A DNA stretch of 64,000 nucleotides, taken from the NCBI RefSeq assembly GCF_014207705.1, contig NZ_JACHIU010000001.1, positions 5,014,501 through 5,078,500 on the forward strand. Reading direction: 5' to 3'. This DNA is from Sphaerisporangium rubeum. Its GTDB lineage: Bacteria > Actinomycetota > Actinomycetes > Streptosporangiales > Streptosporangiaceae. The translations under genes were made by a program, and so were the position numbers. This document shows positions 1 to 14,471 of this stretch, in pieces. The notes below the pieces were generated by a model. That model was not told the DNA's origin. It did no database searches and saw only the letters and a list, made by a program, of their open reading frames with translations. Position 1 is the stretch's first letter. The number at the start of each line of letters is the position of its first letter.

Positions 1-2
1 TC

Positions 3-626
3 ACCGACGTGATCGCGATCAACCGGTACAGCGGCATGCAGACCGGATTCAGCGACAGCGAGCTGGTGTTCCACAACGACCGCACCGCGCACTGGGCCCG
101 CGCCGACTACATCGCGCTGCTCGGCATGCGGTGTCCCGAGGAGGAGGTCATCTACACGACCTTCGTCAGCGGCCGTTCCCTGCTGGCCTGTCTCACCGAG
201 GAGCAGCAGGAGGCGCTGCGCAAGCCGGACTTCTACACGCCGTTCGACGTGTTCTCGCGGGACACCAACCTCCGCCAGCAGATCTCGGAGGACCACCCGA
301 TTCTGGAGAACGACCACAGCTTCCGCTACGTCGAGACGCACACCACCGTCACCCCCGGGGCCCCCGCGGCGGCCAAGGACGCGCTCATCGCGATGAAGAA
401 CGCGCTGTGGCGCGCCGACAAACAGCGGCACCGGCTGATGAGAGGCGACCTGCTGCTGTTCGCCAATCAGGACGGGCTGCACAGCAGGGACCGCATCGAG
501 ATCCTCGACGCCGACCGCGCGCGCACGCGGTGGCTGCTGAAGACGTACTCCTTCCGCGACCAGGAGGCCCGCGACAGGTACGCGGGCCGCTGGCTCGGCG
601 GCGTCCCCGGCAGGATCGCCGACTGA
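3..626 (+). CDS. Fe(II)/2-oxoglutarate-dependent amino acid beta-hydroxylase, 5' truncated
   Basis: The reading frame is open to the left edge, so the N-terminus lies outside the window; the GTG at 9 is only the first start codon in view. The visible part is the catalytic half of a clavaminate synthase/AsnO-like dioxygenase. FHND supplies the H-x-D iron ligands, the distal His lies in DGLHSRDRIE, and the Arg in RTRWLLKT is placed to bind 2-oxoglutarate. Family members hydroxylate the beta carbon of free or carrier-bound Asn, Arg or related amino acids in peptide antibiotic pathways. It is convergent with the LOG gene and separated from it by three hairpins. The NRPS 3.5 kb downstream makes an amino acid substrate likely, but which one is not shown by the sequence. 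Confidence 0.8.
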   Translation, partial: TDVIAINRYSGMQTGFSDSELVFHNDRTAHWARADYIALLGMRCPEEEVIYTTFVSGRSLLACLTEEQQEALRKPDFYTPFDVFSRDTNLRQQISEDHPILENDHSFRYVETHTTVTPGAPAAAKDALIAMKNALWRADKQRHRLMRGDLLLFANQDGLHSRDRIEILDADRARTRWLLKTYSFRDQEARDRYAGRWLGGVPGRIAD

Positions 627-643
627 CCGGACCCGCGGACACC

Positions 644-789
644 TCGGCCCGGCCGTCCGGCCGGGCCGATGGCGTGCCGTGAGCCGATGCGCGCGCGGCG
701 TGCCGTGACCCGCGTCCACGTCTGTGGCGTGTACGCGGGTCACGGCACGACCGAGTGGGGCACGGCCGTGGTGGCCGTGCCCCACTCGG
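644..789. terminator. three consecutive perfect hairpins between convergent genes
   Basis: Three perfect inverted repeats fill this convergent gap: 644-654 with 659-669 (11 bp, 4-nt loop), 699-715 with 733-749 (17 bp, 17-nt loop), and 751-767 with 773-789 (17 bp, 5-nt loop). There is no U-tract. They probably terminate or block read-through from both flanking genes. Confidence 0.7.
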
Positions 790-796
790 GGGACTG

Positions 797-1417
797 TCAG
801 GCCGCGCCGAGCATGCCGGCGGCGAGGCGTGACTCGATGTGGTCGAGTGCCTCGTCCACGGTGGCGGAGACGTGGAACAGCGGCGGGCCGCCGCGGGTGA
901 AGCCGCGGCGGTGGATGTCGGCGAACAGCGCGAACAGGTTGTCGAAGATCCCGTCCACGTTGAGCAGCGTGATGGGTTTGGGGCATTCACCCAGGTAGGA
1001 CAGGGACACCACTTCGAGTATCTCGTCCAGGGTGCCGTAGCCGCCGGGGAGCGCGATGAAGGCGTCCGCCTGGTCGATCATCAGGCGTTTGCGCTCGAAC
1101 ATGTCCTCGGTCACGACGAGCCGCTGGCCGGGTTCCAGCAACGGCCGCTCGATCTCCAGCAGGGACGGGGGGATGATCCCCGTCACCTCCGCTCCCGCGC
1201 GCAGCGCGCCTCGGGCCAGCGAACCCATCAGGCCGACCCCACCGGCGCCGTACACCAGGCGGTGGCCCCGCAGTCCGAGCGCGGCGCCGACCGCCTCGGC
1301 GACCGGCGGTCCGAGCGGCGACAGGCCGGGACGCGCGCCGCAGAACACGCAGATGGACAGCTTCCTGGCCGCAGGCGTCCCCGGAGTGACGGGAGGCGGC
1401 ATGGTCGTCTCGCTCAT
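797..1417 (-). CDS. LOG-family (TIGR00730) nucleoside 5'-monophosphate phosphoribohydrolase
   Basis: 206 residues, the usual length of the family. The Rossmann-like fold motifs are clear: SICVFCGARPG at the N-terminus, MFERKRLM (about residues 93-100) and the PGGYGTLDEILE signature (about 110-121). LOG enzymes split purine nucleoside 5'-monophosphates, classically cytokinin ribotides, into free base and ribose 5-phosphate. It starts 13 nt after the stop of the isopropylmalate-synthase-like gene, so the two probably form one minus-strand operon. Housekeeping LOG genes are common in actinomycetes, but the position inside a biosynthetic cluster that also has a PurF paralogue suggests a pathway role, for instance releasing a base or removing ribose phosphate. 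That role is inference. Confidence 0.85.
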   Translation of the reverse strand: MSETTMPPPVTPGTPAARKLSICVFCGARPGLSPLGPPVAEAVGAALGLRGHRLVYGAGGVGLMGSLARGALRAGAEVTGIIPPSLLEIERPLLEPGQRLVVTEDMFERKRLMIDQADAFIALPGGYGTLDEILEVVSLSYLGECPKPITLLNVDGIFDNLFALFADIHRRGFTRGGPPLFHVSATVDEALDHIESRLAAGMLGAA

Positions 1418-1430
1418 GACCCCCCGGCCC

Positions 1431-2600
1431 TCAGTGCGTCCGCGCGCCGACCGGGACGAGCTCGGCGGCGAGGCGGCGCTCCAGCACCGTGATGTCCTCG
1501 CAGTCGGCTCCCGGCCGCTCGGTGATGTGCCTGCGGTACAGCTCCTCCAGCTTGTCGTCGCTCACCTCGACCCCGATGCGGGACAGGATGTGGCGCAGCA
1601 CGGCGCGGCCGGAGTGCCTGGCGATGAGCATGGAGCGCTCGCGGCCGAACAGCGCGGGTTCGACGAACTCGTAGGTGCTCGGGTCGCGCAGCATGCCCTG
1701 CTGGTGCATGCCGGCGGCGGTGCCGAACGCGAACTCCCCGAAAATGGCCTTGTTGCGTGGCTGCGCCATGCCGATGACCTGCCGCAACTGCGTGTAGATG
1801 GCGTACATGCCGCCGGGGTCGACATCGGTGTAGAGGCCGTACCGGTCACCCTTGTAGTGCAGCAGGGCCACCAGTTCCTCCATGGCGGTGTTCCCGGCGC
1901 GCTCGCCGATGCCGCCGATCGTGGTCTGCACACCGTCGGCGCCGCCTTGCAGGCCGGCCACGGTGTTGGCCAGCGACAGCCCGAAGTCCTCGTGGCAGTG
2001 GGTGAACAGCTGCACAGGCGGCGGGGCCCAGACCCGCATCTTCTCGGTGAGCGCGCGGTACTCGTCCGGCGTCATGCACCCGGTGGTGTCGGCGGCCCCG
2101 ACACACGTGGCGCCTTCGGCGACGGCGGCGCGGACCAGCGCGCGCAGCAACTCGTCACTGCCGCGTGAGGCGTCCTCGAGGCCGAGGGACACCGACTCGA
2201 CGCCGAGCGAGACGGCGTGCCGCACGGTATCGGCGACCTCGGCGATCGCCTCCTCGGGGGTGATGCCGCGCTTGCGCTCGATGTGCAGCTCACTGGCGGT
2301 GGCCAGTACCTGCACCTGGTGATTGCGGGTGCCGCCGGCCGCCACCGCGATGTCCACGTCCCTACGCACGGCCCGGCAGAACGTGACGAAACGGGCTGTG
2401 GTCAGGTGCCGGGAGATGAGCCGCGTGGCCTCGGCCTCAGCGGGTGACGAGGCCGGGAAGCCCGTCTCGATGGCGTCGACGCCGACGGCCTCCAGGGCCA
2501 GCGCCAAAGCGAGCTTCTGCCTCGGGTCCATGGAGTTCCCCGGCGCCTGCTCACCGTCACGCAGGCTCGTGTCATGAACGAACACCCGCCGCTTTTTCAT
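1431..2600 (-). CDS. 2-isopropylmalate/homocitrate synthase-like acyltransferase (HMGL fold)
   Basis: 389 residues from an ATG at 2598-2600 preceded by AGGAAGGAA; an in-frame extension to 2666 lacks a better ribosome site. The DRE-TIM metallolyase hallmarks are present: DTSLRDGEQAPG (about 9-20), the metal ligands in HCHEDFG (about 204-210) and GIGERAGNTAMEEL. The protein lacks the C-terminal leucine-binding regulatory domain of LeuA, so it resembles stand-alone homocitrate or benzylmalate-type synthases, which condense acetyl-CoA with a 2-oxo acid to lengthen it by one carbon. In this cluster it probably starts synthesis of a non-proteinogenic amino acid for the NRPS. No isomerase or dehydrogenase partner is visible, so these must come from primary metabolism or lie outside the window. 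Confidence 0.85.
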   Translation of the reverse strand: MKKRRVFVHDTSLRDGEQAPGNSMDPRQKLALALALEAVGVDAIETGFPASSPAEAEATRLISRHLTTARFVTFCRAVRRDVDIAVAAGGTRNHQVQVLATASELHIERKRGITPEEAIAEVADTVRHAVSLGVESVSLGLEDASRGSDELLRALVRAAVAEGATCVGAADTTGCMTPDEYRALTEKMRVWAPPPVQLFTHCHEDFGLSLANTVAGLQGGADGVQTTIGGIGERAGNTAMEELVALLHYKGDRYGLYTDVDPGGMYAIYTQLRQVIGMAQPRNKAIFGEFAFGTAAGMHQQGMLRDPSTYEFVEPALFGRERSMLIARHSGRAVLRHILSRIGVEVSDDKLEELYRRHITERPGADCEDITVLERRLAAELVPVGARTH

Positions 2601-2687
2601 GGGTCGTTCCTTCCTGTGCAAAAAGGAGAATGAAATATGTATCCACTTTTCCGGCCGCGAGGTCAATCATTCACCGATGCATTTTCT

Positions 2688-2702
2688 TCCACCTCGGGTG
2701 GA
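2688..2702. promoter_or_regulatory. palindrome TCCACC-N3-GGTGGA in the divergent promoter region
   Basis: A perfect 6-bp inverted repeat with a 3-bp spacer sits midway between the minus-strand synthase operon and the plus-strand glutamate-synthase-like/NRPS operon. The half-site TTCCACC recurs in the other divergent region of the cluster (11048-11054). It is a candidate operator for a cluster-specific regulator. Confidence 0.4.
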
Positions 2703-2813
2703 GGGCGATTTCGAGCGCTGTGAAGCCGCCGGTTTTCTTCCGGGTGGTTCTGCCGGTCACGAGGCGGGACCGTGCCTAACGTTGCCGTGTCACCGGCGAA
2801 CGGGAGCGAGTCG

Positions 2814-4082
2814 ATGAATTCCCCTCTGCGTGCCCCAGGTCTGCCCGAGGCCGCCATACGCGCACGGGCCAGGAACGGCATGGCGTGCGCCTTCCCGCCT
2901 GTCGAGGACTACGGCCGCGCCGTCTTCGGCGGCACCTCCCCCGCGTCCGCCGACGCGCTGGACACGATACGGCTGCTTCCGCCGGTCTTCATGGACGAGC
3001 GACTGGAGAAGCTCATCGAGCTCGGCAGGGAGCCGCTGTACAGCGACGTCTCCATGGCCTGCGACATCGGAGGGCTGCGGTCGGCGCTGCCGCTCTTCGT
3101 CTCGGCGTTCGGCTCCACGCACGCCGCGCGCGGCGACCTCGCGCTCGCGGTGGGACGGCAGGCCGGCCGGCTCGGCATCCCCATGGTGCTCGGCGAGAAC
3201 GTCGTGCCGGTCGTCGGGTACGGCCGCATGGAACGCGACGCCGCGCCGCGGTCGCTGCTCGCGCGGATCCGCGCGTACGCCGATGAGGCCGCCGATGGTC
3301 TCGGCGGGGTCGTCGTGCAGCAGAGCACCGAGGACGCCGACGCCGAGGTGTGGAACCTCGTGTACACCGACCCCTCGGCGCGGCCCCTGCTGGAGAGCGG
3401 CCGGCTGGCGTTCGAGCTCAAGGTCGGCCAGGGGGCCAAGCCGGGGCTCGGCGGCATGACCGTGGTGCCGCAGGACGCCGCGGCGGCCCTGCGTGAGCAG
3501 TTCGCGCTGGACCGCGCGTTCGGCGAGCTGTACCTGCGCAGCGCCAGCCCCGGCACGTACACCGAGGAGATCCTGCGCCAGCAGGTGCACCTCATGCGCA
3601 ACAACTTCCCGAGGGCCAGGATCTGGGTGAAGCTGCACCCCGGCAGGGACGTCGCGCACGCCGCGACCGTGGCGTGGGAGGCCGGGAGCGACTCGGTCAC
3701 CGTGGACGGCGCGGAAGGCGGCACCGGCTGGGCTCCCGCCGCGTTCCTCGACCACGTCGGCCTGCCGCTGGCGGACTGCCTGCGGGCCGTCGGCCGCCGC
3801 CGTGACTGCCTGCTGGTCAGCGGCCGCATGTGGGAGGGCACCAGAGCCGTCAAGTGCCTCGCTCTCGGCGCGCGCGCCGTCGGCCTCGGCCGCGCGGCCC
3901 TGCTCGCCGCCGACGAGGACCCCGAGTCCGGCCTGCTGAGGCTGGTCGAGTGCCTGACGCTCGAGATGCGGCTCCTCATCAGCGCTCTCGGCAAGTACGA
4001 CCCCGCGGCTCTGCGTGGCGAGGACATCGGCGAGCCCATGAGCGTGGAAGGAGAGATGTATGACCGGCCCCTTCGAGGATGA
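2814..4082 (+). CDS. FMN-binding glutamate synthase-like protein (stand-alone GltS catalytic domain)
   Basis: 422 residues from the ATG at 2814, which has GGGAG seven bases upstream; an alternative GTG at 2772 would add 14 residues. The central and C-terminal parts match the FMN/synthase barrel of glutamate synthase: FELKVGQGAKPGLGGM (phosphate/FMN loop), IWVKLHPGRDVA, and the DGAEGGTGWAP segment that corresponds to the DGGTGASP motif. There is no glutaminase domain and no obvious GltB cysteine cluster. The gene overlaps the NRPS start by 23 bp, with the Shine-Dalgarno inside its 3' end, so the two are translationally coupled. The likely job is a flavin-dependent amination or oxidation of an amino acid precursor; the substrate is unknown. 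Confidence 0.75.
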   Translation: MNSPLRAPGLPEAAIRARARNGMACAFPPVEDYGRAVFGGTSPASADALDTIRLLPPVFMDERLEKLIELGREPLYSDVSMACDIGGLRSALPLFVSAFGSTHAARGDLALAVGRQAGRLGIPMVLGENVVPVVGYGRMERDAAPRSLLARIRAYADEAADGLGGVVVQQSTEDADAEVWNLVYTDPSARPLLESGRLAFELKVGQGAKPGLGGMTVVPQDAAAALREQFALDRAFGELYLRSASPGTYTEEILRQQVHLMRNNFPRARIWVKLHPGRDVAHAATVAWEAGSDSVTVDGAEGGTGWAPAAFLDHVGLPLADCLRAVGRRRDCLLVSGRMWEGTRAVKCLALGARAVGLGRAALLAADEDPESGLLRLVECLTLEMRLLISALGKYDPAALRGEDIGEPMSVEGEMYDRPLRG

Positions 4083-5964
4083 CGGCGCCGCCTTCCCGCG
4101 CGGAGGGCTGCGGCCCCTCCCCGAGATGCTCGCGGAGCGCGCAGGCGACGAGCGGCCGGCGATCGTGTGCGGGGACGAGGTGCTGACGTACGCGCGGACC
4201 GAGGCACGGGTCAACAGGCTGGCGAACTTCCTGCGTGCGCGCGGCGTACGGCGCGGTGACCTCGTCGGGGTGCTGCTGGAACGAGGGACGGCGCTGCCGG
4301 TCGCGTTGCTCGCGGTGCTGAAGGCCGGTGCGGCGTACGTGCCGCTGAACCCCCGGGACCCAGGGCCGCGGATCGGGCTGATCCTGGAGGACGCGCGGCC
4401 CGCGGTCGTGCTGACCGAAGGGCCGCCGCGCGGGCTGCCACCGGGGATGCCGTGGCTGGACGTCGCCGACCCGGCGATCGGCGCGATGCCTGCCACGCCT
4501 CCCGAGGCGCGGGTGACGCTCGGGGACCTCGCGTATGTGATCTTCACGAGCGGGTCCACCGGCCGGCCGAAGGGGGTCGCGGTGCCGCACGGCGCGCTGG
4601 TCAACTTCCTGGTGTCCATGGCCGCGCGGCCGGGAATGCCGGCCTTCGGCGTGCTGGTCGCGGTGACCACGCCTTCGTTCGACATCGCGGCGCTTGAGCT
4701 CTTCCTTCCGCTGACCACCGGCGGGACGGTGGTGGTCGCGGACTCGGCCACCACCGTGGACGGCGCGCGGCTGCGCGCGCTGCTGGCGCGCTCGGGTGCC
4801 ACGCACATGCAGGCCACCCCCGCCACCTGGCGGCTGCTGCGCGGCGCACCCGAGCTGGCCGGGCTCACGGCCCTGGTCGGCGGGGAGGCGGTCACGCCGG
4901 ACGTCGCCGGGTTCCTGCTCGGCGGCGGAGCGACGGTGTGGAACATGTACGGGCCGACGGAGACGACCATCTGGTCCACCGTACGTCCCCTCGGGCCCGG
5001 CGACCTCGGCCGCTCGGGGCCGATGCCGATCGGCCGGCCGATCCGCGACACCACCTGCCACGTCCTGGACGGCTCGGGCCTGCCGGTGCCGGACGGCGAG
5101 CCAGGTGAGCTGTACATCGGCGGCGGCGGTCTGGCCCGCGGCTACCACGGCCGGGCCGGCCTGACGGCGTCCCGCTTCGTCCCCGACCCCTTCGGCCCGC
5201 CAGGCGCGCGGCTGTACCGCACCGGCGACCTCGCGCGGTTCCTGCCGTGCGGCGACCTCGAGTACCTCGGCCGCACCGACCACCAGGTCAAGATCCGCGG
5301 CCACCGCGTCGAGACCGGCGAGATCGAGGCCCACCTCGCGGCCCACCCGTCGGTGGACCAGGCCGTCGTCACCGCGCACGACTTCGGCCCCGCCGACCGC
5401 AGACTGGTCGCCTACGTGACCCCCGCGACCGTCCGCACCGGCGACACGACCTCCGGCGAGACGGCGTCCTCGCGCACCGATACCGGCGCGGACCCGGACC
5501 CGGCGCTCCTTCGGACTCACCTCGCCGAGCGCCTCCCCGCCTACATGGTCCCCGGCATCTATCTGGTGCTTCCCGAGTTCCCCCTCACCCCGAACAGGAA
5601 GGTCGACAGGAAGGCGCTCCCCGAGCCCGTCTTCCCCGCGGCGTCCCCCGAGGAGGAGCCGCTCGACGCACGCGCACAGGTGCTCACCGCGGTGGTGGCC
5701 GAGGTGCTCGGGGTGGCCGCCGTCGCGGCGGGGGACAACTTCATCGGCCGCGGCGGGGACAGCGTGTCCGCGCTGACCGTCGTACGCAGGGCACGCGAGG
5801 CGGGGCTGAACCTGACCGCCGAGGACGTGCTCGCCGGCGACGACTTCGCCGCGACGGCGCGGCGCGCGCTCCCCGTCGACGACGATCCCGCCGGGGAGGC
5901 GGCGGCCGTGCCGCTGGTGTCCCTCAGCCAGGCGGAGCTCGACGAGATCGAATCCCTGCTGTGA
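4060..5964 (+). CDS. NRPS adenylation-thiolation didomain, predicted glycine-activating
   Basis: 634 residues. The A domain core motifs are in order: A3 TSGSTGRPKGV (about 163), A4 FDIAALELF, A5 NMYGPTETTIW, A7/A8 YRTGDLAR and GRTDHQVKIRGHR (about 404), A10 NRKVDRKALP (about 512). The carrier domain follows, with the phosphopantetheine Ser in GRGGDSVSAL (about 567). Reading the ten specificity positions by alignment to GrsA gives D-I-L-Q-V-G-M-I-W-K, which is close to published glycine codes (DILQLG-L-I-W). No condensation domain precedes it, so this is an initiation module. The acidic tail SQAELDEIESLL resembles a docking segment for the next protein. Start ATG has GGAAGGAGAG just upstream and overlaps the preceding gene. 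Confidence 0.9.
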   Translation: MTGPFEDDGAAFPRGGLRPLPEMLAERAGDERPAIVCGDEVLTYARTEARVNRLANFLRARGVRRGDLVGVLLERGTALPVALLAVLKAGAAYVPLNPRDPGPRIGLILEDARPAVVLTEGPPRGLPPGMPWLDVADPAIGAMPATPPEARVTLGDLAYVIFTSGSTGRPKGVAVPHGALVNFLVSMAARPGMPAFGVLVAVTTPSFDIAALELFLPLTTGGTVVVADSATTVDGARLRALLARSGATHMQATPATWRLLRGAPELAGLTALVGGEAVTPDVAGFLLGGGATVWNMYGPTETTIWSTVRPLGPGDLGRSGPMPIGRPIRDTTCHVLDGSGLPVPDGEPGELYIGGGGLARGYHGRAGLTASRFVPDPFGPPGARLYRTGDLARFLPCGDLEYLGRTDHQVKIRGHRVETGEIEAHLAAHPSVDQAVVTAHDFGPADRRLVAYVTPATVRTGDTTSGETASSRTDTGADPDPALLRTHLAERLPAYMVPGIYLVLPEFPLTPNRKVDRKALPEPVFPAASPEEEPLDARAQVLTAVVAEVLGVAAVAAGDNFIGRGGDSVSALTVVRRAREAGLNLTAEDVLAGDDFAATARRALPVDDDPAGEAAAVPLVSLSQAELDEIESLL

Positions 5965-5987
5965 TTCCGACGTCTGGAGACCCGACC

Positions 5988-8900
5988 ATGTCACGCTCAC
6001 CCGTCGAGGACGTCCTGCCGCTGTCACCGCTGCAGGAGGGCCTGCTGTTCCACGCGCTGTTCGACCGCGAGTCCCGCAGGCTGTACGTCGCGCAGTTCGT
6101 CACGCCGCTGCACGGCCCGCTGGACGCCGCGCGGCTGCGCGCCGCCGCCGAGGCGCTGCTCGAACGTCACCCCAATCTGCGTGTGGTGTTCCGGCACCGC
6201 AGGTCAGGCGAGCCGCTGCAGGTGGTCCGCAGGGACGCGCCGCTCGACTGGACCGAGGCCGGCGCGAACGCGGGGGACGCGGCCGCGGTGATCGACGCGG
6301 ACTGGCGACGCGGGATGGACGTGGAAGGCGCGGCGCTGATCCGTTTCCTCCTGGTCAAGGAGGGGCCGCTGAGGCACAGGCTGGTCGTCACCGCGCACCA
6401 CTGCGTGATCGACGGCTGGTCGACGGCGTTGCTGTTCCAGGAACTGTTCGACCTGTACGCCGGTGAGCGGCTGCCGCCTGCGCCGTCGTTCCGCGACTAC
6501 CTCACCTGGGTGGCGCGGCAGGACAAGATCCGGGCCCAGCTCGGCTGGCGCGGGGACATGGCCGGCGCGGAACCCACGTACGTGGCCCCTGGAGCGCCGC
6601 GCGGCGAGGCCGACCCCCGTACGGTGACCGTCCGGCTGCCGGCGGGGCTGACGCGTGAGCTGTCGGCGCGGGCCCGTGAGTGCGGCGTCACCGTCAACAC
6701 GGTGGTGCAGACCGCGTGGGCCATCCTGCTCGGCCACATGACCGGCCGCGACGACGTGGTGTTCGGCACGACGGTGAGCGGCCGGCCGGCCGACCTGCCG
6801 GGTGCGGACACCATGGTCGGCATGCTGATCAACACGGTGCCGGTACGGGCCGAGCTGCGGCCGGACGACACCGTGCGGGACGTCATGGAACGCGTGCAGG
6901 AGCAGCGGTTCCGGTTGCTCGCTCACGACTACCTCGGGCTGACCGACATCCACCGGGCCATCGGCGCGGACCGGCCGCTGTTCGACACCACGGTCGCCAT
7001 GGACAACTACCCGATGAGCGATTACGCGTTCGACCTGCGGGTCGAGGGGTTGCGCGCCGACGGCGTCACCGTGCGGGAGACCTCGCACTACGCGGTGACA
7101 CTGGTCGCCGTACCGGGTGAGGAGCTGGAGCTCCACATCCACCACCGGCCCGACCTGTTCGGCCGCGCCGACGTCGAGGCGTGGGCCGCGCGCCTGACCC
7201 GCCTGTTCGAGCGGTTCGCCGACGACCCCGGCACCCGCCTGAGGCAGATCGCGCCGCTGACCCCCGAGGAGCAGGGACGCCTGCTCGCGGCGGGTACGGG
7301 GCCGAGCGCCGCCGCACCTGAGTGCGTGCACCACGCGTTCGAACGCATCGCCTCGCGCCTGCCTGACGTCACCGCGCTGATCTTCGAGGACCGCCGCGTC
7401 ACGTACGCCGAGCTGAACGAACGCGCCAACCGCCTGGCCCACCACCTCGCCGGGCTCGGCGTGCGGCCCGGCGCCTGGGCCGGTGTGCAATTCGAGCGGG
7501 GCCCCGACCTCGTCGTGGCGATCCTCGCGGTGCTCAAGGCCGGTGGCGCGTACGTACTGCTCGACACGTCTTTCCCTCCGGAGCGGCGCCGGGAGATCCT
7601 CGGCAGGGCCGGCGCGGAGGTGCTCGTCACCGGCGCGGACCTCGCGGAGCGACTCGGCGCCGAGGGGGTCGTGGTCGTGCGGTGCGACACCGACGCGGCG
7701 GCCGTCGCGGCCCACTCCCCCGCCGGCCCCCGCTCCGGCGTGACCCCCGAGGACGCCGCGTGCGTGCTGTTCACCTCCGGGTCGCAGGGCAGCCCCAAGG
7801 GGGTCGTGGCGCCGCACCGCGCGATCACGGCCACGCTCGCCGGACAGGACTTCATGGAACTGCGTGAGGGTGAGGTGACACTCCAGTGCTCCCCCGTGTC
7901 GTGGGACGCGTTCGCCGCCGAGCTGTTCGGGCCGCTGACCACCGGCGGCACGTGCGTGCTCCAGCCGGGCCCGGTGCCGGAGCCCGAGGTGATCGCCAGG
8001 CTGATGGCCGCGCACGACGTGACCACCGCGCACTTCTCGGCGAGCCTGCTCAACTTCCTGCTCGACGAGCACCCCGGCCTGCTGTCCCGCACGCGGCAGC
8101 TCCTCACCGGCGGTGAGGCCGCCTCGATGCCGCACATGCGCAAGGCGCTGCGCGACTACCCCGGCCTGCGGATCGTCAACTGCTACTCGCCGCTCGAATG
8201 CATGATGGTCAGCGTGTGGCACCGGGCCGCGCCGCAGGACCTGGCACGGCCGTCGCTGCCGCTCGGCCGGCCGACGGCAGGCAAACGGCTGTACGTGCTC
8301 GACGCGAACCTGCGGCTGGTACCGCCGGGGTTCATCGGCGAGCTGTACATCGCGGGAGCGGGGCTGGCGCACGGCTATCTCGGCCGGCCGGCGCTGACCG
8401 CCGAGCGATTCGCCGCCGACCCGTTCGGCGGGCCGGGTGAGCGCATGTACCGCACCGGGGACATGGTGCGGTGGACGCGTGACGGGCTGCTGGAGTTCGT
8501 CGGCAGGGACGACGCGCAGTTCAAGCTGCGGGGGTTCCGCATCGAGCCCGCGGAGGTCGAGGCGGCGATCACCGCACACGACGGGGTCGCGGACGCGAGG
8601 GTCATGGTGCGCGAGGACCGGCCGGGTGACCAGCGGCTCGTGGCGTACGTCATCCCCACCGACCCACGTGCCTTCGACGTCACCGCGCTGCGGGGCCACC
8701 TCACGGTCTTCCTGCCGGACTACCTGCGTCCCGCGGCATTCGTCGGGCTGGAGCACTTCCCCGTCACGCCGAACGGCAAGCTGGACCGCCGGGCCCTGCC
8801 GGTGCCTGACTACGGCGTCACCGGTGGCGAGGCGGCGCGCGACGACCGTGAGGAGATGCTGTGCGCGTTGTTCGCCGACGTGCTCGGCGTCGAGGACGTC

Positions 8901-9077
8901 GGCATCCATGACGACTTCTTCCGGCTCGGCGGCCACTCGCTGCTCGCGCTGCGGCTGATCGGCCGGCTGCGGGCCTCACTCGGCGTCGACATGGGGATCG
9001 CCACCTTGTTCCGCCACCCCACCGTGGCGGCCCTCGCCGAGCAGCTCGGCCGTGAGCACGCGCCGGATCCCGCCTGA
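5988..9077 (+). CDS. NRPS condensation-adenylation-thiolation module without thioesterase
   Basis: 1029 residues from ATG 5988 (GGAG upstream); the longer open frame to the left is not coding. The C domain has an intact HHCVIDGWS motif (about 137). The A domain has A3 FTSGSQGSPKGV (about 595), A8 GRDDAQFKLRGFR (about 840) and A10 NGKLDRRALP. The carrier has LGGHSLLALR (about 981). Its A5 motif is abnormal, NCYSPLECM in place of NxYGPTE, and the specificity residues read D-A-A-S-T-G-C-M-V-K, which I cannot assign. It should condense the glycyl unit from the upstream A-T protein with a second, probably unusual, amino acid. The protein ends after the carrier, so release needs an external enzyme or nucleophile. 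Confidence 0.9.
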   Translation: MSRSPVEDVLPLSPLQEGLLFHALFDRESRRLYVAQFVTPLHGPLDAARLRAAAEALLERHPNLRVVFRHRRSGEPLQVVRRDAPLDWTEAGANAGDAAAVIDADWRRGMDVEGAALIRFLLVKEGPLRHRLVVTAHHCVIDGWSTALLFQELFDLYAGERLPPAPSFRDYLTWVARQDKIRAQLGWRGDMAGAEPTYVAPGAPRGEADPRTVTVRLPAGLTRELSARARECGVTVNTVVQTAWAILLGHMTGRDDVVFGTTVSGRPADLPGADTMVGMLINTVPVRAELRPDDTVRDVMERVQEQRFRLLAHDYLGLTDIHRAIGADRPLFDTTVAMDNYPMSDYAFDLRVEGLRADGVTVRETSHYAVTLVAVPGEELELHIHHRPDLFGRADVEAWAARLTRLFERFADDPGTRLRQIAPLTPEEQGRLLAAGTGPSAAAPECVHHAFERIASRLPDVTALIFEDRRVTYAELNERANRLAHHLAGLGVRPGAWAGVQFERGPDLVVAILAVLKAGGAYVLLDTSFPPERRREILGRAGAEVLVTGADLAERLGAEGVVVVRCDTDAAAVAAHSPAGPRSGVTPEDAACVLFTSGSQGSPKGVVAPHRAITATLAGQDFMELREGEVTLQCSPVSWDAFAAELFGPLTTGGTCVLQPGPVPEPEVIARLMAAHDVTTAHFSASLLNFLLDEHPGLLSRTRQLLTGGEAASMPHMRKALRDYPGLRIVNCYSPLECMMVSVWHRAAPQDLARPSLPLGRPTAGKRLYVLDANLRLVPPGFIGELYIAGAGLAHGYLGRPALTAERFAADPFGGPGERMYRTGDMVRWTRDGLLEFVGRDDAQFKLRGFRIEPAEVEAAITAHDGVADARVMVREDRPGDQRLVAYVIPTDPRAFDVTALRGHLTVFLPDYLRPAAFVGLEHFPVTPNGKLDRRALPVPDYGVTGGEAARDDREEMLCALFADVLGVEDVGIHDDFFRLGGHSLLALRLIGRLRASLGVDMGIATLFRHPTVAALAEQLGREHAPDPA

Positions 9078-9103
9078 CCCGCCGGCACCGGCACTCATGC
9101 ATG

Positions 9104-9148
9104 ACGACGGAAGAGAGGTCCCGGAGTCCGGGACCCCTCTTCCGTCGT
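9104..9148. terminator. long hairpin between convergent NRPS and luxR genes
   Basis: Arms 9104-9124 and 9128-9148 pair over 21 positions with a single mismatch and a 3-nt loop. It lies between the NRPS stop and the convergent regulator stop and probably serves both directions. Confidence 0.8.
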
Positions 9149-9220
9149 GCGAACGTTCCGAGCTGTCCTCCGGCGGAGATTTTTCGCTTTCGTCCTGCCA
9201 ACGCTCCGCGCGCCGTCCCC

Positions 9221-9943
9221 TCACCGGACGAGGCGTGGCCGTCTGTCCTCTTCGACACCGCAGCCGAGCGCGGCTTGCATCAGCAGGACGGCCTCCAGGC
9301 GGTTGCGCGCGCCGAGCTTGGTGAGCGAGTGCGACACGTGGCTCTTGACGGTGGCCGGGGAGATCGCGAGGGACCTGGACACCTCGGCGGTGGACAGGCC
9401 GTCGGCGAGCAGCGCGAGGACCTCGCGCTCACGCTCGGTCAGCTCGTCCATGCGGTGGTCGAAGACCGAGCCGCCGTTCATCACCGTCGCGGGCACGCAC
9501 AGCTCGATGAGGTCGGGTGAGAGCACCACGTACCCGGAGGCGGCGGCCACGACGGCGGCGCACAGGTTCGCCACGGCCCAGTCCTTGTTCAGGCAGCCGG
9601 CCGCCCCCACGGCGAACGCGGCGTCGAGCCGGTGCTTGCTCCAGTCGACGCCGATGAGCAGCGTGCGCACCCCCGCCTCGGCGAGCGTGCGCGCGAGCAG
9701 CACGTGGTTCTCCTTCGGCCCGGAGACCAGCACCGCGAGGTCGCCGCGCCGCACGTGCCACCCCGGTGTCGCGCCACGGCCGTCGGTCGCGGCGATCAGC
9801 GTGATGTCCGGCGATGCGCTGAGTGTGCCGCCGAGCACGTGACGCGAGATGGGGTCGTTGTCCACCAGCACCACCCGAGGCGCGTCCACCGGCGCGGCCG
9901 CGGACGACGCGGCCGGGACGAAGGTCTCCCGCAGTGTGCTCAC
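9221..9943 (-). CDS. LuxR-family regulator with a pseudo-receiver domain
   Basis: 240 residues, GTG start overlapping the stop of the AsnRS-like gene by 4 bp (translational coupling). The N-terminal 120 residues follow the receiver fold (VVLVDNDPISRHVL, later CLNKDW), but the phospho-acceptor region reads DLAVLVSGP, so the canonical Asp at the end of beta-3 is missing. The C-terminus is a typical LuxR helix-turn-helix: LTEREREVLALLADGLSTAE and ISPATVKSHVSHSLTKLG (about 165-215). It is probably a cluster-situated transcription factor controlled by ligand or abundance rather than by phosphorylation, as known for atypical response regulators in antibiotic clusters. Confidence 0.85.
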   Translation of the reverse strand: MSTLRETFVPAASSAAAPVDAPRVVLVDNDPISRHVLGGTLSASPDITLIAATDGRGATPGWHVRRGDLAVLVSGPKENHVLLARTLAEAGVRTLLIGVDWSKHRLDAAFAVGAAGCLNKDWAVANLCAAVVAAASGYVVLSPDLIELCVPATVMNGGSVFDHRMDELTEREREVLALLADGLSTAEVSRSLAISPATVKSHVSHSLTKLGARNRLEAVLLMQAALGCGVEEDRRPRLVR

Positions 9944-10944
9944 GGAGACACCATCCCGGGGACCTTCGGATAAGCGGTGGCCTGCCAGACGTACTCGGCA
10001 CCCGCGAGGTACCGGGTGAAGCGCTCGACCCCGAGCCCGAAGCCGGCGCTCGGTGGCACCCCTTTGCGCACCTCCTCCATGTACCAGGCGTACTTGGAGG
10101 GGTTCTCGCCGGTCTCCCGGCAGCGGGTGATCAGCGTCGCGTAGTCCCGCTCGCGTTCACCGCCGCTGATGACCTCGCCGTACCCCTCCGGCATGAGCAG
10201 GTCGAACGTCCGCAGCACCCGGGGCCGGTCAGGGTCCTCACGCTCGATGAAGCACCGCGAGCCCTTGGGGTAGTGCGACACGAGCAGCGGTCCGTCCGCG
10301 AGTTCGGACAGCAGCCGCTCACCCTGCCAGTCGATCTCGGCGCCGGGCTCCTGCGGGTGGCCGCGGTCGATCAGGGTCCGCACCGCTTCGGTGTGGGAGA
10401 GCCGGCCGAACGGCTTGCCGAGCAGCGCCGTGAACGCGGAGGCGTCGCGGCCCAGCACCGCGAGGTCACCGGCGCAGTGCGTGACGACACCCCGCACGAT
10501 ATGCGTGATGAGCTCCTCGGCGAGCGTCATGATCGATTCCAGCGTCGCGTGCGCGACCTCGATGTCGAGCTGGTGGAACTCGGCCAGATGACGCTGCGTG
10601 GAGCAGGTCTCAAGCGGCTCCAGCCGCACGTTGGGGGCCACGAACACGATCTTGTCGAAGGCCAGCAGCGACGGCTGCTTGTAGACCCCGGCACTCGTCA
10701 TCAGTTTGTAGCGGTGACCGTAGTAGTCCACGTCGACCTGCTTGGCGCCGCGGATCCCCGGGTCGGTCACCGGGCCGATCACCGGAGGCAGCAACTCGAC
10801 GAAGCCCTCGCGGTAGAGGTACTCACGCGCGAAGCCGAGCATGCGGTGCTGGAGGCGCAGGACGGTGCGGGTCTCTTCAGAGGTGAGGTGCTCGCGTGGC
10901 GACGGCGGCAGCTTGTTCGCCGCGGCCGTGACGTGGTGTGCCAA
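9940..10944 (-). CDS. AsnRS-like asparagine synthetase-type ligase (class II core, no anticodon domain)
   Basis: 334 residues. The start is TTG at 10942-10944, the first possible start after an in-frame TAA, with GGGAG nine bases upstream. The protein is the class II catalytic core of asparaginyl-tRNA synthetase: a motif-2-like segment VRLEPLETCSTQRHLAEFHQLDIEV is split by changes from the usual FRAE..RHL pattern, and motif 3 GFGLGVERFTRYLAG is intact near the C-terminus. No OB-fold anticodon-binding domain is present. Such truncated paralogues act as ammonia-dependent asparagine synthetases in archaea. Here it probably activates a carboxylate as acyl-adenylate and forms an amide. It is the first gene of a two-gene unit with the LuxR regulator and diverges from purF. 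Confidence 0.8.
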   Translation of the reverse strand: MAHHVTAAANKLPPSPREHLTSEETRTVLRLQHRMLGFAREYLYREGFVELLPPVIGPVTDPGIRGAKQVDVDYYGHRYKLMTSAGVYKQPSLLAFDKIVFVAPNVRLEPLETCSTQRHLAEFHQLDIEVAHATLESIMTLAEELITHIVRGVVTHCAGDLAVLGRDASAFTALLGKPFGRLSHTEAVRTLIDRGHPQEPGAEIDWQGERLLSELADGPLLVSHYPKGSRCFIEREDPDRPRVLRTFDLLMPEGYGEVISGGERERDYATLITRCRETGENPSKYAWYMEEVRKGVPPSAGFGLGVERFTRYLAGAEYVWQATAYPKVPGMVSP

Positions 10945-10993
10945 TTTGGATTACTCCCGTCGTGGAGTGGCGGCCCCTAATTCTGAGAAAAGA

Positions 10994-11087
10994 CTAGGCG
11001 CGGTGGAAAGGCGCACCCGGAAGTTTCGACGGAAGAATGCAGGCAGCTTCCACCGCGCACGAACTTCTGCACGACGTTCTCGCCTAG
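10994..11087. promoter_or_regulatory. nested inverted repeats in the AsnRS-like/purF divergent region
   Basis: An 11-bp perfect inverted repeat, GCGCGGTGGAA at 10998-11008 and its complement at 11048-11058, sits inside a 7-bp repeat CTAGGCG at 10994-11000 and CGCCTAG at 11081-11087. The arrangement is roughly symmetrical between the two divergent genes. It could be a cooperative operator or an RNA structure in the purF leader. The TTCCACC element also occurs at 2687-2693. Confidence 0.5.
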
Positions 11088-11153
11088 CATCGGCGGCAGG
11101 CGCCGGCAAAGGCGCCGATTCGATTTTCACCGGCCGAATGCGGAGGGTGCCCC

Positions 11154-12581
11154 ATGTCTCTTGACGCCGTGGGAGAAGAGTGCGGGATCGTCGGTGTCCG
11201 GGCCCCCGGCGCGTCCGTGGCCTGGATGGTGTACGCGGGGTTGCTCGCGTTGCAGCACCGCGGCCAGGAGGCGGCAGGCGTGGCGGTCGGCGACGGATCC
11301 CGGCTGAGCCTGGAACGCGGCCTCGGGCTGGTCACCCAGGTGTTCGACGAGGAGCGGCTGGACCGGCTGCCCGGCCTGGTCGGCGTCGGCCACGTGCGCT
11401 ACCCCACGGCCGGCGGCGCGGCCCTCGCCAACGCGCAGCCCCTGCTCGGCGCCGCCGCCTCAGGTGAACGGTTCGCGCTGGCCCACAACGGCAACCTGCT
11501 GCGCATCGGCCGCTTCGGCGGTTCCGCCGACGGGGCCGGCGGCCGGGCTTGCGACCGCGCCGGCCGGGAGCCGGGGAGCGACAGGCGGCGGGACGGCGGG
11601 ACCGACACCCAGGCCCTGGTGGACCGGCTCGCCACCCGTGAGGGCCCGCTCGTGCAGGGACTGCGTGAGCTGCTGCCGCACGTGTACGGCGCGTACTGCC
11701 TGGTGCTCGCGACGCCGTCGGCCCTGTACGCGGCGCGCGACCCGCACGGCTTCCGTCCCCTCTGCCTCGGGGCCACCGCCACCGGCTGGGTGGTGGCGTC
11801 GGAGACGGCGGCGCTGGACGCCGTGGGGGCCCGGTTCGTGCGCGAGGTCGAGCCCGGCGAACTGCTCACCATCGACGACGACGGCCTGCGGTCGGAACAC
11901 TTCGCGGTCGCGCCGCACACGTTGTGCGTGTTCGAGCACGTCTACATCGCGCGGCCCGACTCTCTGATCAGCGGACGCCGCGTGCAGGAGGTGCGGCACG
12001 CGTTCGGCGCGGCGCTGGCCCGCGAGGCCGGGGTACCGGCCGACGTGGTCATCCCTGTGCCTGACACGGCGCGGCCCGCCGCGCTCGGCTACGCCGCCGA
12101 GAGCGGGGTGCCGTACGCCGAGGGGTTTGTCAGGAACCCCTACCTCGGCCGCACGTTCCTGCGTCCGAGCGACGCGGCGCGCCGTTCCGGGGTCCGCCTG
12201 AAGCTCAACCCGGTGCCGGAGGCGGTCGGCGGCAAGCGAGTGGTGGTGGTGGACGACTCGCTGGTGCGCGCCACCTCGATGAAGCACGCGGTCGCGCTGC
12301 TGCGCGGCGCCGGCGCGGCCGAGGTGCACGTGCGGCTGGCGTCGTCGACGATCGCGTGGCCGTGCTTCTTCGGCGTGGACATCAGCACGCAGAGCGAGCT
12401 GGCGGGCCACTTGATGACGCCTGAGCAGATCGGCGCGTTCGTCGGGGCCGACTCGCTGGCCTTCCTGTCGGTCGAGGCCATGAGCGCGGCGACCGGCGCG
12501 GGCCGGTCGCTGTGCCTCGGGTGCTTCACCGGCTCGTATCCCTCTCGCGTGCCTCTTGAACCGGCCCGGCCTGTGGCGTGA
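11154..12581 (+). CDS. purF: amidophosphoribosyltransferase (PurF) paralogue
   Basis: 475 residues, ATG with GGAGGG seven bases upstream. The N-terminus MSLDAVGEE is a short propeptide ahead of the catalytic CGIVGV cysteine of class II glutamine amidotransferases; HNGNLLR follows the usual pattern. The phosphoribosyltransferase half contains NPYLGRTFLRPS and the PRPP loop VVVVDDSLVRATSMK (about 362-376), then WPCFFGVD. Known reaction: PRPP plus glutamine gives 5-phosphoribosylamine, the first step of purine synthesis. No purL, purM or other purine gene is adjacent, and the gene sits in a biosynthetic cluster, so a pathway-dedicated copy is likely. A housekeeping role cannot be excluded from this window. 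Its last 56 bp overlap the convergent MFS gene. Confidence 0.85.
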   Translation: MSLDAVGEECGIVGVRAPGASVAWMVYAGLLALQHRGQEAAGVAVGDGSRLSLERGLGLVTQVFDEERLDRLPGLVGVGHVRYPTAGGAALANAQPLLGAAASGERFALAHNGNLLRIGRFGGSADGAGGRACDRAGREPGSDRRRDGGTDTQALVDRLATREGPLVQGLRELLPHVYGAYCLVLATPSALYAARDPHGFRPLCLGATATGWVVASETAALDAVGARFVREVEPGELLTIDDDGLRSEHFAVAPHTLCVFEHVYIARPDSLISGRRVQEVRHAFGAALAREAGVPADVVIPVPDTARPAALGYAAESGVPYAEGFVRNPYLGRTFLRPSDAARRSGVRLKLNPVPEAVGGKRVVVVDDSLVRATSMKHAVALLRGAGAAEVHVRLASSTIAWPCFFGVDISTQSELAGHLMTPEQIGAFVGADSLAFLSVEAMSAATGAGRSLCLGCFTGSYPSRVPLEPARPVA

Positions 12582-13818
12582 CCGGCGCCGGCTTCAGCAG
12601 GCGCGCGGCGAGCAACCACGCGAGCAGCAGCACCGCCGCCTGGAAGTTCAGCGCCGCGAGCGTCGGCACCAGCCCGGCGAGGACGCCGGCGAGCATCATG
12701 CCGAGCGCCTGCTGGCCGTCGGACAGCGCGATGAACGTGCTCATCACCCTGCCGCGCAGCCCCTCAGGCGTCGCCTCCTGCACCAGCGACAGCCACCCCG
12801 CCATCAGCCAGATGCCGGGGACCCCCGCCAGGGTGAACAGGCCGATGTAGAAGCCGATCCAGGCGGTCACCAGGGTGAGATTCCAGATGGCCAGGCTGAT
12901 CAGCGCGAACGACAGCAGCCCGTAGGCGAGGAACTGGTGGGCCTGCAACCGGCGCGCCATCCGGCCGGCGACGGCGCCGCCGAGCAGTCCTCCGATGGCC
13001 TGCACGCCGCGCAGCAGCCCCGCCTCCGGCTCGCCGCCGGCGATCAGGTCGGTGACGAACAGCAGGAACAGGATCACGAAGAGTCCTTGTGCCACCGACA
13101 GCAGACCGAGGATGAGCGCGACCGACCGCAGCCGCGCCGAGGAGCCGATGGCGCGCAGCCCGGTCGGCAGCTCGCGCCAGAACGCGGGCCCGGAGGTCTC
13201 GGCCCCGGGGACCACGGCGTCCTCGGTGACCCGGCGCGCGGCGCCTGAGCCCATGAGCGCGACGAGCACGACAGTCACCACCAGCATGGCGACCGACGTC
13301 AGCACGACGCTGGCCATGCCGGTGAACCCCAGCAGGAACCCGCCGACGGGACTGCCGACCAGACGGCCGAGGTTGCTGTTCAGGTTGATGGACGCGTTGG
13401 CCCGCACGAGCTGTCCTGAGGGCACCAGCGTCGGCACCACGGCGTTCTTCACCGACTCGAACATGCCGGTGAGGCCGGACTCGGCGGCCATCACGAGGTA
13501 CACGATCCACAGGTCGCCCTCGCCGGCGACGAGCAGCAGGGGGAGCAGCAGCAGGGCTCTGGTGCCGGCCAGCCACGCCATGAGCGGCGCCGGCCGCCAC
13601 CGGTCGGCGAAGACGCCGGCCAGCGGCGTGAGGATCAGGCTCGGCAGCAGGCCGAGCATCGCCACGGTGGAGGTGACCAGCGCCGAGCCGGTGAGGGTCA
13701 GCGCGTACAACGGCAGCGCGATCAGCAGGGACCACCTGCTGATCTCGGTGAAGAAACTCGCGGCCCAGATGTATAAGAACCGTCGTTGGCGCAGCGGGTG
13801 CGCAGGCGTCGTGCTCAT
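12526..13818 (-). CDS. MFS efflux transporter
   Basis: 430 residues from ATG 13816-13818; a longer open frame upstream runs through the ArsR gene and is not coding. The protein has the hydrophobic pattern of a 12-helix major facilitator, with ADRWRPAPLM after helix 2 and GRMARRL in the central loop, and resembles macrolide/DHA3-type exporters. It lies 44 nt behind the ArsR-like regulator on the same strand, so the pair probably forms a regulator-exporter operon. It is the natural candidate for exporting or conferring resistance to the cluster product. The 3' end overlaps the convergent purF by 56 bp. Confidence 0.85.
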   Translation of the reverse strand: MSTTPAHPLRQRRFLYIWAASFFTEISRWSLLIALPLYALTLTGSALVTSTVAMLGLLPSLILTPLAGVFADRWRPAPLMAWLAGTRALLLLPLLLVAGEGDLWIVYLVMAAESGLTGMFESVKNAVVPTLVPSGQLVRANASINLNSNLGRLVGSPVGGFLLGFTGMASVVLTSVAMLVVTVVLVALMGSGAARRVTEDAVVPGAETSGPAFWRELPTGLRAIGSSARLRSVALILGLLSVAQGLFVILFLLFVTDLIAGGEPEAGLLRGVQAIGGLLGGAVAGRMARRLQAHQFLAYGLLSFALISLAIWNLTLVTAWIGFYIGLFTLAGVPGIWLMAGWLSLVQEATPEGLRGRVMSTFIALSDGQQALGMMLAGVLAGLVPTLAALNFQAAVLLLAWLLAARLLKPAPVTPQAGPVQEARERDTSR

Positions 13819-13862
13819 GGTCTCAGGCTCCGATCGTGGGGGGCGGCCGACCGGCCGGGGAG

Positions 13863-14471
13863 CTACTGCTTCCGTGTTCCCCGGATCGGGAAACCATGCA
13901 TGACGTACATGACGCGCTCGACCCCGGGAGGGGGCGACTGACGGGTCTGCCGCCAGCGCGTGCCGAGCATGGCGTACCGGTCGATCACGGCCTTCAGTTC
14001 GGCGTGCATGCGCGCGAGCTCGTCGCTGGTGAGGTCGACGGTGCCGTCGGTCATGAACGCCGCGTCGAGCCAGTCGCCGTCCCAGTCCTTCTCCTCGCTC
14101 GCGAACTCCTCGATGAACCTGACCTGCTCGCGGATCGCGCTGCCTTTCACCATGGAGGCGACCGCCGCGGCGTCGGGTGCGTCGAGCACGGTGGAGGCGT
14201 CCCACCCCACCCTCTTGCCGCTGAGCTGCCACCAGCGCTCGCGCCGGTCGCGCGCGTACTGCGGCACCTCCTCGATGAAGCCGTACTGGTGCAGCTGGTG
14301 GAGGTGGTAGCTGACCTGCGCGATCGGGGAGCTCACCGAGGCGGCGAGCTGGGACACCGACGCCGCTCCGGCGTTTCTGAGGCTGTAGTAGAGGCGGACG
14401 CGCATGGGGTGCGCGAAGGCTTTCAGCACGCTGACACCGTCACTTCCCTTGCTCGTCTCCCCGCGGCTCAT
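13863..14471 (-). CDS. ArsR-like winged-helix transcriptional regulator
   Basis: 202 residues with an N-terminal winged helix: VLKAFAHPMRVRLYYSLR, then SQLAASVSSPIAQVSYHLHQLHQYGFIEEVP (about 15-70). This is the ArsR/HTH_20 type often found next to MFS exporters in actinomycetes. No metal-binding cysteine pair is seen; the C-terminal 120 residues are helical and probably sense a ligand or mediate dimerization. It precedes the MFS gene by 44 nt and probably represses that operon from a site in the AT-richer region upstream. Confidence 0.8.
   Translation of the reverse strand: MSRGETSKGSDGVSVLKAFAHPMRVRLYYSLRNAGAASVSQLAASVSSPIAQVSYHLHQLHQYGFIEEVPQYARDRRERWWQLSGKRVGWDASTVLDAPDAAAVASMVKGSAIREQVRFIEEFASEEKDWDGDWLDAAFMTDGTVDLTSDELARMHAELKAVIDRYAMLGTRWRQTRQSPPPGVERVMYVMHGFPIRGTRKQ

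Follow-up and report, generated by a model that had tools for sequence, protein, structure and literature searches.

A conserved nonribosomal peptide synthetase cluster of Sphaerisporangium rubeum in which leucine-pathway-type enzymes apparently replace glutamate mutase

Gene content and extent of the cluster

The 64,000-nucleotide stretch of the Sphaerisporangium rubeum genome analysed here (positions 5,014,501-5,078,500 of contig NZ_JACHIU010000001.1; referred to as the window) carries at its left end part of a nonribosomal peptide synthetase (NRPS) cluster. Domain and family-model scans recovered every gene that the initial annotation had named in its first 14 kb, and the couplings described between these genes proved exact (overlaps of 23 bp at 4060-4082 and of 4 bp at 9940-9943, and a gap of 13 nt at 1418-1430). 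The left border had been placed outside the window, and a further 20 kb to the left (read as L009; negative coordinates continue the window numbering) indeed revealed additional genes to about -12.3 kb. In window coordinates the conserved cluster spans about -12.3 kb to 14.5 kb (~26.8 kb), with close to half of it left of the window, in a genome of 7.5 Mb that forms a single contig. It is a real, conserved NRPS cluster that is larger than the window shows (Table 1).

The two-module NRPS without thioesterase of the earlier description was an artefact, because the window edge cuts the cluster. A third protein, NRPS3, with condensation, adenylation, thiolation and thioesterase domains (C-A-T-TE) lies beyond that edge, and the full set comprises an A-T loading module, a C-A-T elongation module and the C-A-T-TE release module, plus MbtH. 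On the right, comparison across stretches placed the edge of the conserved cluster at the ArsR gene, because the next genes were poorly conserved (no matches for a TetR gene, and a 26% match in one stretch for MFS2, a major facilitator superfamily gene). This comparison covered seven stretches, namely five of the six synthase-bearing clusters described below, Nonomuraea solani (G176) and genome G120 (Streptomyces alfalfae was read to 10 kb on each side), and the co-occurrence of the core genes across these stretches bore out the view that the region forms a single biosynthetic cluster.

Table 1. Genes of the cluster, with positions in window coordinates and the supporting domain or family-model matches.
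Gene product	Position	Strand	Model match
Methyltransferase	-12299 to -11067	-	
MbtH	-11080 to -10898	-	
NRPS3, C-A-T-TE	-10901 to -6897	-	
M20 amidohydrolase, carbamoylase/allantoate-amidohydrolase type	-6900 to -5641	-	
Branched-chain aminotransferase	-5644 to -4568	-	
LeuA	-4197 to -2509	-	
LeuD	-2507 to -1905	-	
LeuC	-1897 to -482	-	
AsnO/clavaminate-synthase-type Fe(II)/2-oxoglutarate oxygenase	-369 to 626	+	TauD E 2.4e-7
LOG-family phosphoribohydrolase-like protein	797-1417	-	TIGR00730 144 bits, cut-off 96
Condensing enzyme of isopropylmalate/homocitrate synthase fold, without regulatory domain	1431-2600	-	HMGL-like E 2e-66, HCS_D2 1.7e-17
GltS-like FMN-barrel protein (SlgE3-like), 436 aa	2772-4082	+	Glu_synthase E 7e-22, FMN_dh 2.8e-13
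NRPS1, A-T loading module	4060-5964	+	AMP-binding E 7e-77, PP-binding 5e-6
NRPS2, C-A-T module	5988-9077	+	Condensation, AMP-binding, PP-binding
LuxR-type response-regulator-like protein	9221-9943	-	GerE E 1.3e-18
AsnRS-like asparagine synthetase A-type enzyme (SlgZ-like)	9940-10944	-	NF005052 416 bits, cut-off 368
PurF paralogue	11154-12581	+	TIGR01134 445 bits, cut-off 350
MFS exporter	12526-13818	-	MFS_1 E 2.8e-24
ArsR/HTH_20 regulator	13863-14471	-	HTH_20 E 4e-8

The AsnRS-like/GltS-like pair and glutamate mutase

Two genes of the window, encoding an asparaginyl-tRNA-synthetase-like (AsnRS-like) protein and a glutamate-synthase-like (GltS-like) flavin mononucleotide (FMN)-barrel protein, recurred together in other genomes. 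A scan of a species-level genome collection returned 236 GltS-like relatives, the best 80 of which, with flanks of up to 10 kb, are referred to as named loci, and an AsnRS-like gene was present in all 80. Within the family survey (341 genomes), the GltS-like protein was found in 14 genomes with 16 copies in total; the 15 neighbourhoods other than that of the window all contained an AsnRS-like gene, which was immediately adjacent in 14 of them. The distance between both genes is 5.9 kb in the window and 7.4 kb in Acrocarpospora. The reverse search revealed 17 close AsnRS-like genes in the family (at least 53% identity and at least 379 bits, with the next match at 124 bits), 16 of them with a GltS-like gene no more than 10 kb away. 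The remaining one is that of G120 (L156, G120:C16:35500-55499), which carries a mutase and an AsnRS-like gene beside an NRPS, with no GltS-like match in its genome at E 1e-20, and which offers a natural test of the need for the GltS-like enzyme. The AsnRS-like and GltS-like genes are a widespread actinobacterial pair.

The AsnRS-like protein has tRNA-synt_2 as its sole domain, keeps the class II motif GLGVER and lacks an anticodon-binding domain, and among solved structures AsnRS and archaeal AsnA are closest to it. A function as tRNA enzyme was rejected in view of the absent anticodon domain and the match to the asparagine synthetase A model. Like archaeal-type asparagine synthetase A, the protein exceeds the cut-off of the corresponding NCBIfam model and consists of a class II catalytic domain without anticodon domain, but its gene lies in NRPS clusters near a GltS-like gene. 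In the GltS-like protein only Glu_synthase and FMN_dh were matched, the N-terminal glutaminase domain being absent, and an alignment of 16 members contained no invariant cysteine beyond residue 336. In GltS the 3Fe-4S cysteines sit after the FMN barrel. Because of the missing glutaminase domain and the missing invariant cysteine after residue 336, the label of glutamate synthase is doubtful. The predicted structure of the GltS-like protein (mean pLDDT 72.8, which is middling) matched type 2 isopentenyl diphosphate isomerase (IDI-2) and hydroxyacid oxidases, which indicates only the FMN-barrel superfamily and nothing narrower. An oxidase role, in which this protein turns the AsnRS-like product into something more exotic, was dropped as a lead because streptolydigin has a like pair and G120 lacks the GltS-like protein.

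In streptolydigin biosynthesis, SlgE1-E2-E3 are involved in the supply of 3-methylaspartate, with SlgE3 described as a ferredoxin-dependent glutamate synthase, and SlgZ, which is AsnRS-like, functions in tetramic acid formation (PMC5357945). Compared by make-up, the SlgE1-SlgE2-SlgE3-SlgZ set of Streptomyces lydicus resembles the window in that AsnRS-like and GltS-like genes serve an NRPS, but differs in that the window has no glutamate mutase and instead carries an isopropylmalate synthase (IPMS)-like synthase, LeuC, LeuD and an AsnO-like oxygenase. SlgE1 and SlgE2 are the subunits of glutamate mutase, and the product of the streptolydigin set is methylasparagine. The original claim that the enzyme set matches no known pathway fails for the pair, which has the make-up of SlgZ/SlgE3. 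A literature search on the whole gene set returned no paper combining four of its six terms, and a narrower search returned one S. lydicus genome paper.

Glutamate mutase E was present in 70 of the 80 named loci. The ten loci without it comprised five clusters with an IPMS-like synthase, two loci on contigs of at most 7.2 kb, and L057, L059 and L079. Six clusters with both an IPMS-like synthase and LeuC were found (those of the window, Sphaerisporangium sp. TRM90804, Acrocarpospora phusangensis, Streptomyces sp. BK208, S. alfalfae and Streptomyces sp. Z26), and mutase E occurred in none of these versus 70 of the 75 remaining named loci (Fisher p 1.4e-6). No match to mutase E or S was found in the 44 kb stretch read for the cluster described here, and a genome-wide search for mutase E at E 1e-20 left four of the six genomes without a match.

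All five synthase-bearing clusters among the seven stretches contained the synthase, LeuC, LeuD, AsnO-like, GltS-like, AsnRS-like, NRPS2 and LuxR genes, and four of the five contained the M20, aminotransferase, NRPS3 and methyltransferase genes, with the fifth (Acrocarpospora) meeting its contig edge directly after LeuD. LeuA was present in two of the five (Acrocarpospora being unreadable there), LOG in two and PurF in three. The most telling relative, N. solani (G176), carries homologues of the MFS, LOG, M20, AsnRS-like, GltS-like, NRPS1, NRPS2, aminotransferase and PurF genes, together with a weak 26% ArsR match; in this genome glutamate mutase takes the place of the synthase, LeuC and LeuD, and the AsnO-like gene is absent. 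In the six mutase-free clusters the supply seems to have been swapped and the assembly module kept.

Two further observations concern the distribution of the pair. A second pair in the genome of the window (G000:C1:7,226,000-7,266,000; L033, L034) lies in an NRPS cluster with mutase E and a DALQMAGGF domain. Nine pair loci (L062, L080, L087, L096, L125, L127-L129 and L133) contain a class I methionyl-tRNA-synthetase-like gene, accompanied in eight of the loci by an N-hydroxylase-like gene, both being identified by eye. Genes of these two types occur in known N-N bond-forming pathways, and those loci may couple hydrazine chemistry to the asparagine pair.

Altered pockets, adenylation codes and a candidate route

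Homologues of the synthase that are 68-72% identical were present in all four other IPMS-like clusters compared, and among the 25 matches listed for the synthase no equivalog cut-off was reached. Its pocket was set against the residue table for HphA, homocitrate synthase (HCS) and IPMS (PMC12961565) for four of the five residues in five sequences, placed by eye. In these five, a Phe stands where HCS has His and IPMS has Leu, a Ser where HCS has Arg and IPMS has Glu, a Gly or Ala at the IPMS Ser, and a Gly, Ala or Val at the IPMS Asn. The window protein reads Phe/Ser/Gly/Gly versus Leu/Glu/Ser/Asn in IPMS and lacks the LeuA_dimer regulatory domain. Its initial designation as homocitrate-synthase-like was confirmed at the level of fold and domains, but not at that of the His and Arg with which HCS binds 2-oxoglutarate, which are Phe and Ser here. 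Judged by its pocket residues, the synthase appears to be neither a typical IPMS nor a typical HCS. Its best solved relative was 6e1j (E 6.9e-60), which we take to be a methylthioalkylmalate synthase. Like this enzyme of plant chain elongation, the window synthase has no regulatory domain and has Gly/Ala in place of the IPMS serine, but it is bacterial, linked to an NRPS and accompanied by other partner enzymes.

The LeuD loop was likewise altered, reading ARF[CF]T[NG] in all five clusters versus AVWLKQ in the housekeeping LeuD of the genome, which also has a separate housekeeping LeuC. In the LeuD/homoaconitase family this loop sets substrate choice, and the changed synthase pocket and LeuD loop together argue against ordinary leucine supply. 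A tblastn search with the LeuB candidate of the genome gave no match in any of the seven stretches; the genome of the window has this one candidate and one more family member, both distant from the cluster. The lack of LeuB is consistent with a 3-substituted malate that escapes decarboxylation or is processed by the housekeeping enzyme. Leucine supply alone was rejected as explanation of the core, because two Streptomyces clusters (58-61 kb read) have no LeuA and because synthase and LeuD were changed in all five clusters.

The AsnO-like oxygenase carries a TauD domain and an HXD motif (HND, at residue 148 when the full-length protein is numbered), and homologues with 68-75% identity were found in all four other clusters compared; the GntD, Cs1 and VioC models scored far under their cut-offs, the domain and family-model scans both covering the 207-aa part within the window.

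Adenylation codes were read at positions set via sequence landmarks. The NRPS1 code was DILQLGMIW in the window and DILQLGMVW in TRM90804, of serine type in Acrocarpospora and G176, and DVYQ(I/V)ILVA in the Streptomyces clusters. We take DILQLGMIW to be a glycine-type code, in agreement with the glycine-containing peptide proposed at the outset. For NRPS3 the code was DMPKVGEVA in all three clusters read, resembling the Asn/Asp group. For NRPS2 the code was DAAHLGCMV in the window and DAFHLGAMV in the remaining five clusters. In a tree of 123 A domains, all from pair loci and with no unlinked A domains as control, the six NRPS2 domains formed one group (100) inside a 45-member clade (100) that recurs in pair loci, 38 members of which have DALxxGGxF-like codes that resemble those of valine domains. 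In G176, the A domains read were one of serine type and DALHLGGIF, the NRPS2 homologue. Because G176 has the mutase, the pair and otherwise just a serine-type domain, the DALHLGGIF domain should take the product of the pair, which makes G176 a stronger argument for the NRPS2 substrate than the clade of A domains. The final positions of the NRPS2 code are changed in common across the six clusters, consistent with a non-methyl substituent.

Tentatively, we infer that the cluster produces a tripeptide-scale NRPS product with a beta-substituted asparagine whose substituent derives from an alkylmalate route, a reading that we hold plausible though short of probable. The IPMS-like synthase and the LeuC/LeuD paralogues would convert a 2-oxo acid and acetyl-CoA into a 3-substituted malate, which would be oxidised and then aminated, by the aminotransferase and/or the GltS-like enzyme, ahead of decarboxylation. 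The AsnRS-like enzyme would amidate the side-chain carboxylate of the 3-substituted aspartate, and the synthase and LeuCD would stand in for glutamate mutase, the usual source of 3-methylaspartate. NRPS1 would load glycine (serine in some relatives), NRPS2 the beta-substituted asparagine, and NRPS3 a residue of Asn/Asp type that the AsnO-like oxygenase may beta-hydroxylate, after which the thioesterase would release the chain. Somewhat more doubtful is the wider claim that beta-substituted aspartates and asparagines are here made by a second route that needs no B12, in which the malate is oxidised and aminated, not decarboxylated, and a modified leucine pathway supplants glutamate mutase.

A comparable use of such a synthase is described for cystargolide and belactosin, in which an isopropylmalate-synthase homologue gives a 3-alkylmalate to a short peptide and not onward to leucine (PMC11408123, PMC11427300). 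The synthase homologue of the window would likewise supply a 3-alkylmalate to a short peptide, but the cystargolide and belactosin clusters are beta-lactone clusters without NRPS genes, whereas three NRPS modules, LeuCD and the asparagine-forming pair are present here. Among the matches listed in a literature search on isopropyl-, ethyl- and methylasparagine, the two isopropyl terms, 3-isopropylaspartate and alkylaspartate were not mentioned (further literature: PMC6603273, PMC8468904).

A number of points weigh against a beta-substituted asparagine made in this way. The six IPMS-like clusters form one clade (SH-aLRT 100), so the mutase may have been lost from them just once, and the p-value overstates the case. 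The genomes of the window and of TRM90804 have a mutase elsewhere (the sole mutase E match of the former is at 7.25 Mb, in another cluster), so that 3-methylaspartate could arrive in trans. Moreover, 3-substituted oxaloacetates decarboxylate readily, and no dehydrogenase that would stop at this stage was found. The aminotransferase is not specific to an alkylmalate route, since it is present in mutase-bearing G176 and in six further mutase-type loci among the 80, and the full LeuA in two of the four clusters with a readable place would fit plain leucine supply. The mutase and AsnRS-like gene of G120, without a GltS-like partner, cloud the role of the GltS-like protein. The NRPS2 clade alone is no proof of a substituted asparagine, because its codes are valine-like and the tree has no outside controls; the A-domain type is also not uniform across pair clusters, given that DxYYWG-type codes characterise a second group of these loci and DLTKVGEVA domains occur in G012 and G215b. 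Finally, we know of no metabolite or other product of this cluster.

Competing readings, accessory genes and implications

The same enzymes might instead perform a homologation like that of HphABCD, with the synthase, LeuCD, a housekeeping LeuB and the aminotransferase making a chain-extended amino acid for NRPS2, and with the pair and the AsnO-like oxygenase separately giving (hydroxy)asparagine for NRPS3. We consider this rather unlikely. The single housekeeping LeuB candidate of the genome, the Asn/Asp-type code of NRPS3 in all three clusters read and the hydrophobic, valine-like codes of the NRPS2 clade would all suit it. So would the shared enzyme types, as the published pathway to homophenylalanine and homotyrosine uses an IPMS-fold condensing enzyme (HphA), a LeuCD-type isomerase (HphCD), HphB and an aminotransferase (PMC12961565). 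However, HphB/LeuB is missing from all seven stretches, and the synthase has a Phe where HphA has Ala73. In addition, the NRPS2 homologue of G176, which is accompanied by the mutase and the pair and not by LeuCD, should take the product of the pair, and a need for plain asparagine would hardly explain a dedicated asparagine synthetase.

The other genes to be accounted for include PurF, LOG and M20. The cluster PurF is full-length and has kept its glutaminase cysteine and phosphoribosyl pyrophosphate (PRPP) motif region, and in all four cluster copies the pyrophosphate (PPi) loop reads PDTARPAA versus PESGTPAA and the PRPP loop VRA (VRATS) versus VRG. The PurF proteins of the window, TRM90804, Acrocarpospora and N. 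solani group together (100/100; four versus eight others), the N. solani branch being long. The LOG-like protein retains the motif PGGYGTLDE (PGGxGTxxE), but passed only the broader TIGR00730 model, missing the NCBIfam LOG equivalog cut-off (112 bits versus 300). The anticipated co-occurrence in other genomes held for the core and only partly for PurF (four of the seven stretches) and LOG (three of the seven). In N. solani the LOG and M20 genes adjoin each other, and in Kibdelosporangium banguiense they lie close together. Beside the mutase and the pair, the latter has two LOG-like genes (one of them, the second, identified by eye), the M20 gene and a GHMP-kinase-like gene (by eye; L104:1852-7077), and its genome gave just one PurF match.

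PurF, and perhaps LeuA, could be insensitive or additional versions of enzymes of primary metabolism, there to shield the producer or raise precursor supply, and not tailoring enzymes. This is compatible with a beta-substituted asparagine product, competing with it only for PurF and LeuA, and we regard it as improbable. It would agree with the variable presence of PurF and LeuA (four and two of the seven stretches, one of which ends before the place of LeuA) and with a full-length PurF that has altered PPi and PRPP loops in a genome that keeps a separate housekeeping PurF. Against it, a new reaction would explain the altered loops just as well, only one PurF is present in each of the three Streptomyces genomes that have such a cluster, and we know of no target or bioactivity. 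In a literature search on PurF self-resistance, amidophosphoribosyltransferase was not mentioned among the matches listed.

Very improbable is a ribosylation scheme, in which PurF makes phosphoribosylamine, the AsnRS-like enzyme couples it to an activated carboxylate and LOG removes ribose phosphate to leave a primary amide or an N-ribosylated product: the PurF and LOG motifs are kept and, in the window, 209 bp separate the PurF start from the AsnRS-like gene, but among the 80 named pair loci PurF occurred in three (leaving 77 without it) and LOG in two, and both were present together in just two of the seven stretches. For PurF, protection or precursor supply is no less likely as a role. Overall, the initial interpretation as a glycine-containing peptide that is possibly N-ribosylated is partly supported, with nothing positive found for the N-ribosylation.

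Among the regulatory and transport genes, a LuxR homologue with 59-60% identity was present in all four other IPMS-like clusters compared, whereas the MFS and ArsR genes each had a match in six of the seven stretches, with identities beyond the three closest of 37-40% for MFS and just 26-30% for ArsR. Hairpins, which had been thought to border the couplings, were not in excess, as five terminator-like sites were found in 1-15300 versus 3.5 +/- 2.0 in shuffled sequences, and a search of 2600-2790 gave no inverted repeat. Weak terminator-like hairpins lie at 9163-9176 (after NRPS2) and at 11099-11116 (before PurF). Three tandem, mostly alike, secreted-looking proteins of 463-673 aa adjoin the left side of the cluster (L009:2385-7649).

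The new part of a beta-substituted asparagine pathway in this cluster would be that retuned enzymes of the leucine pathway have apparently taken over from glutamate mutase, the pair itself being of a known kind. Beta-substituted aspartates and asparagines are useful building blocks that are hard to make, and to our knowledge the known actinomycete route to such residues needs a B12-dependent mutase. If the proposed replacement is true, it opens the beta-substituent to variation, as a leucine-pathway substitute would permit other side chains and transfer to other hosts. The pair, being far more widespread than one antibiotic, offers a handle for finding substituted-asparagine peptides, and the six mutase-free clusters present a natural experiment in swapped precursor supply.

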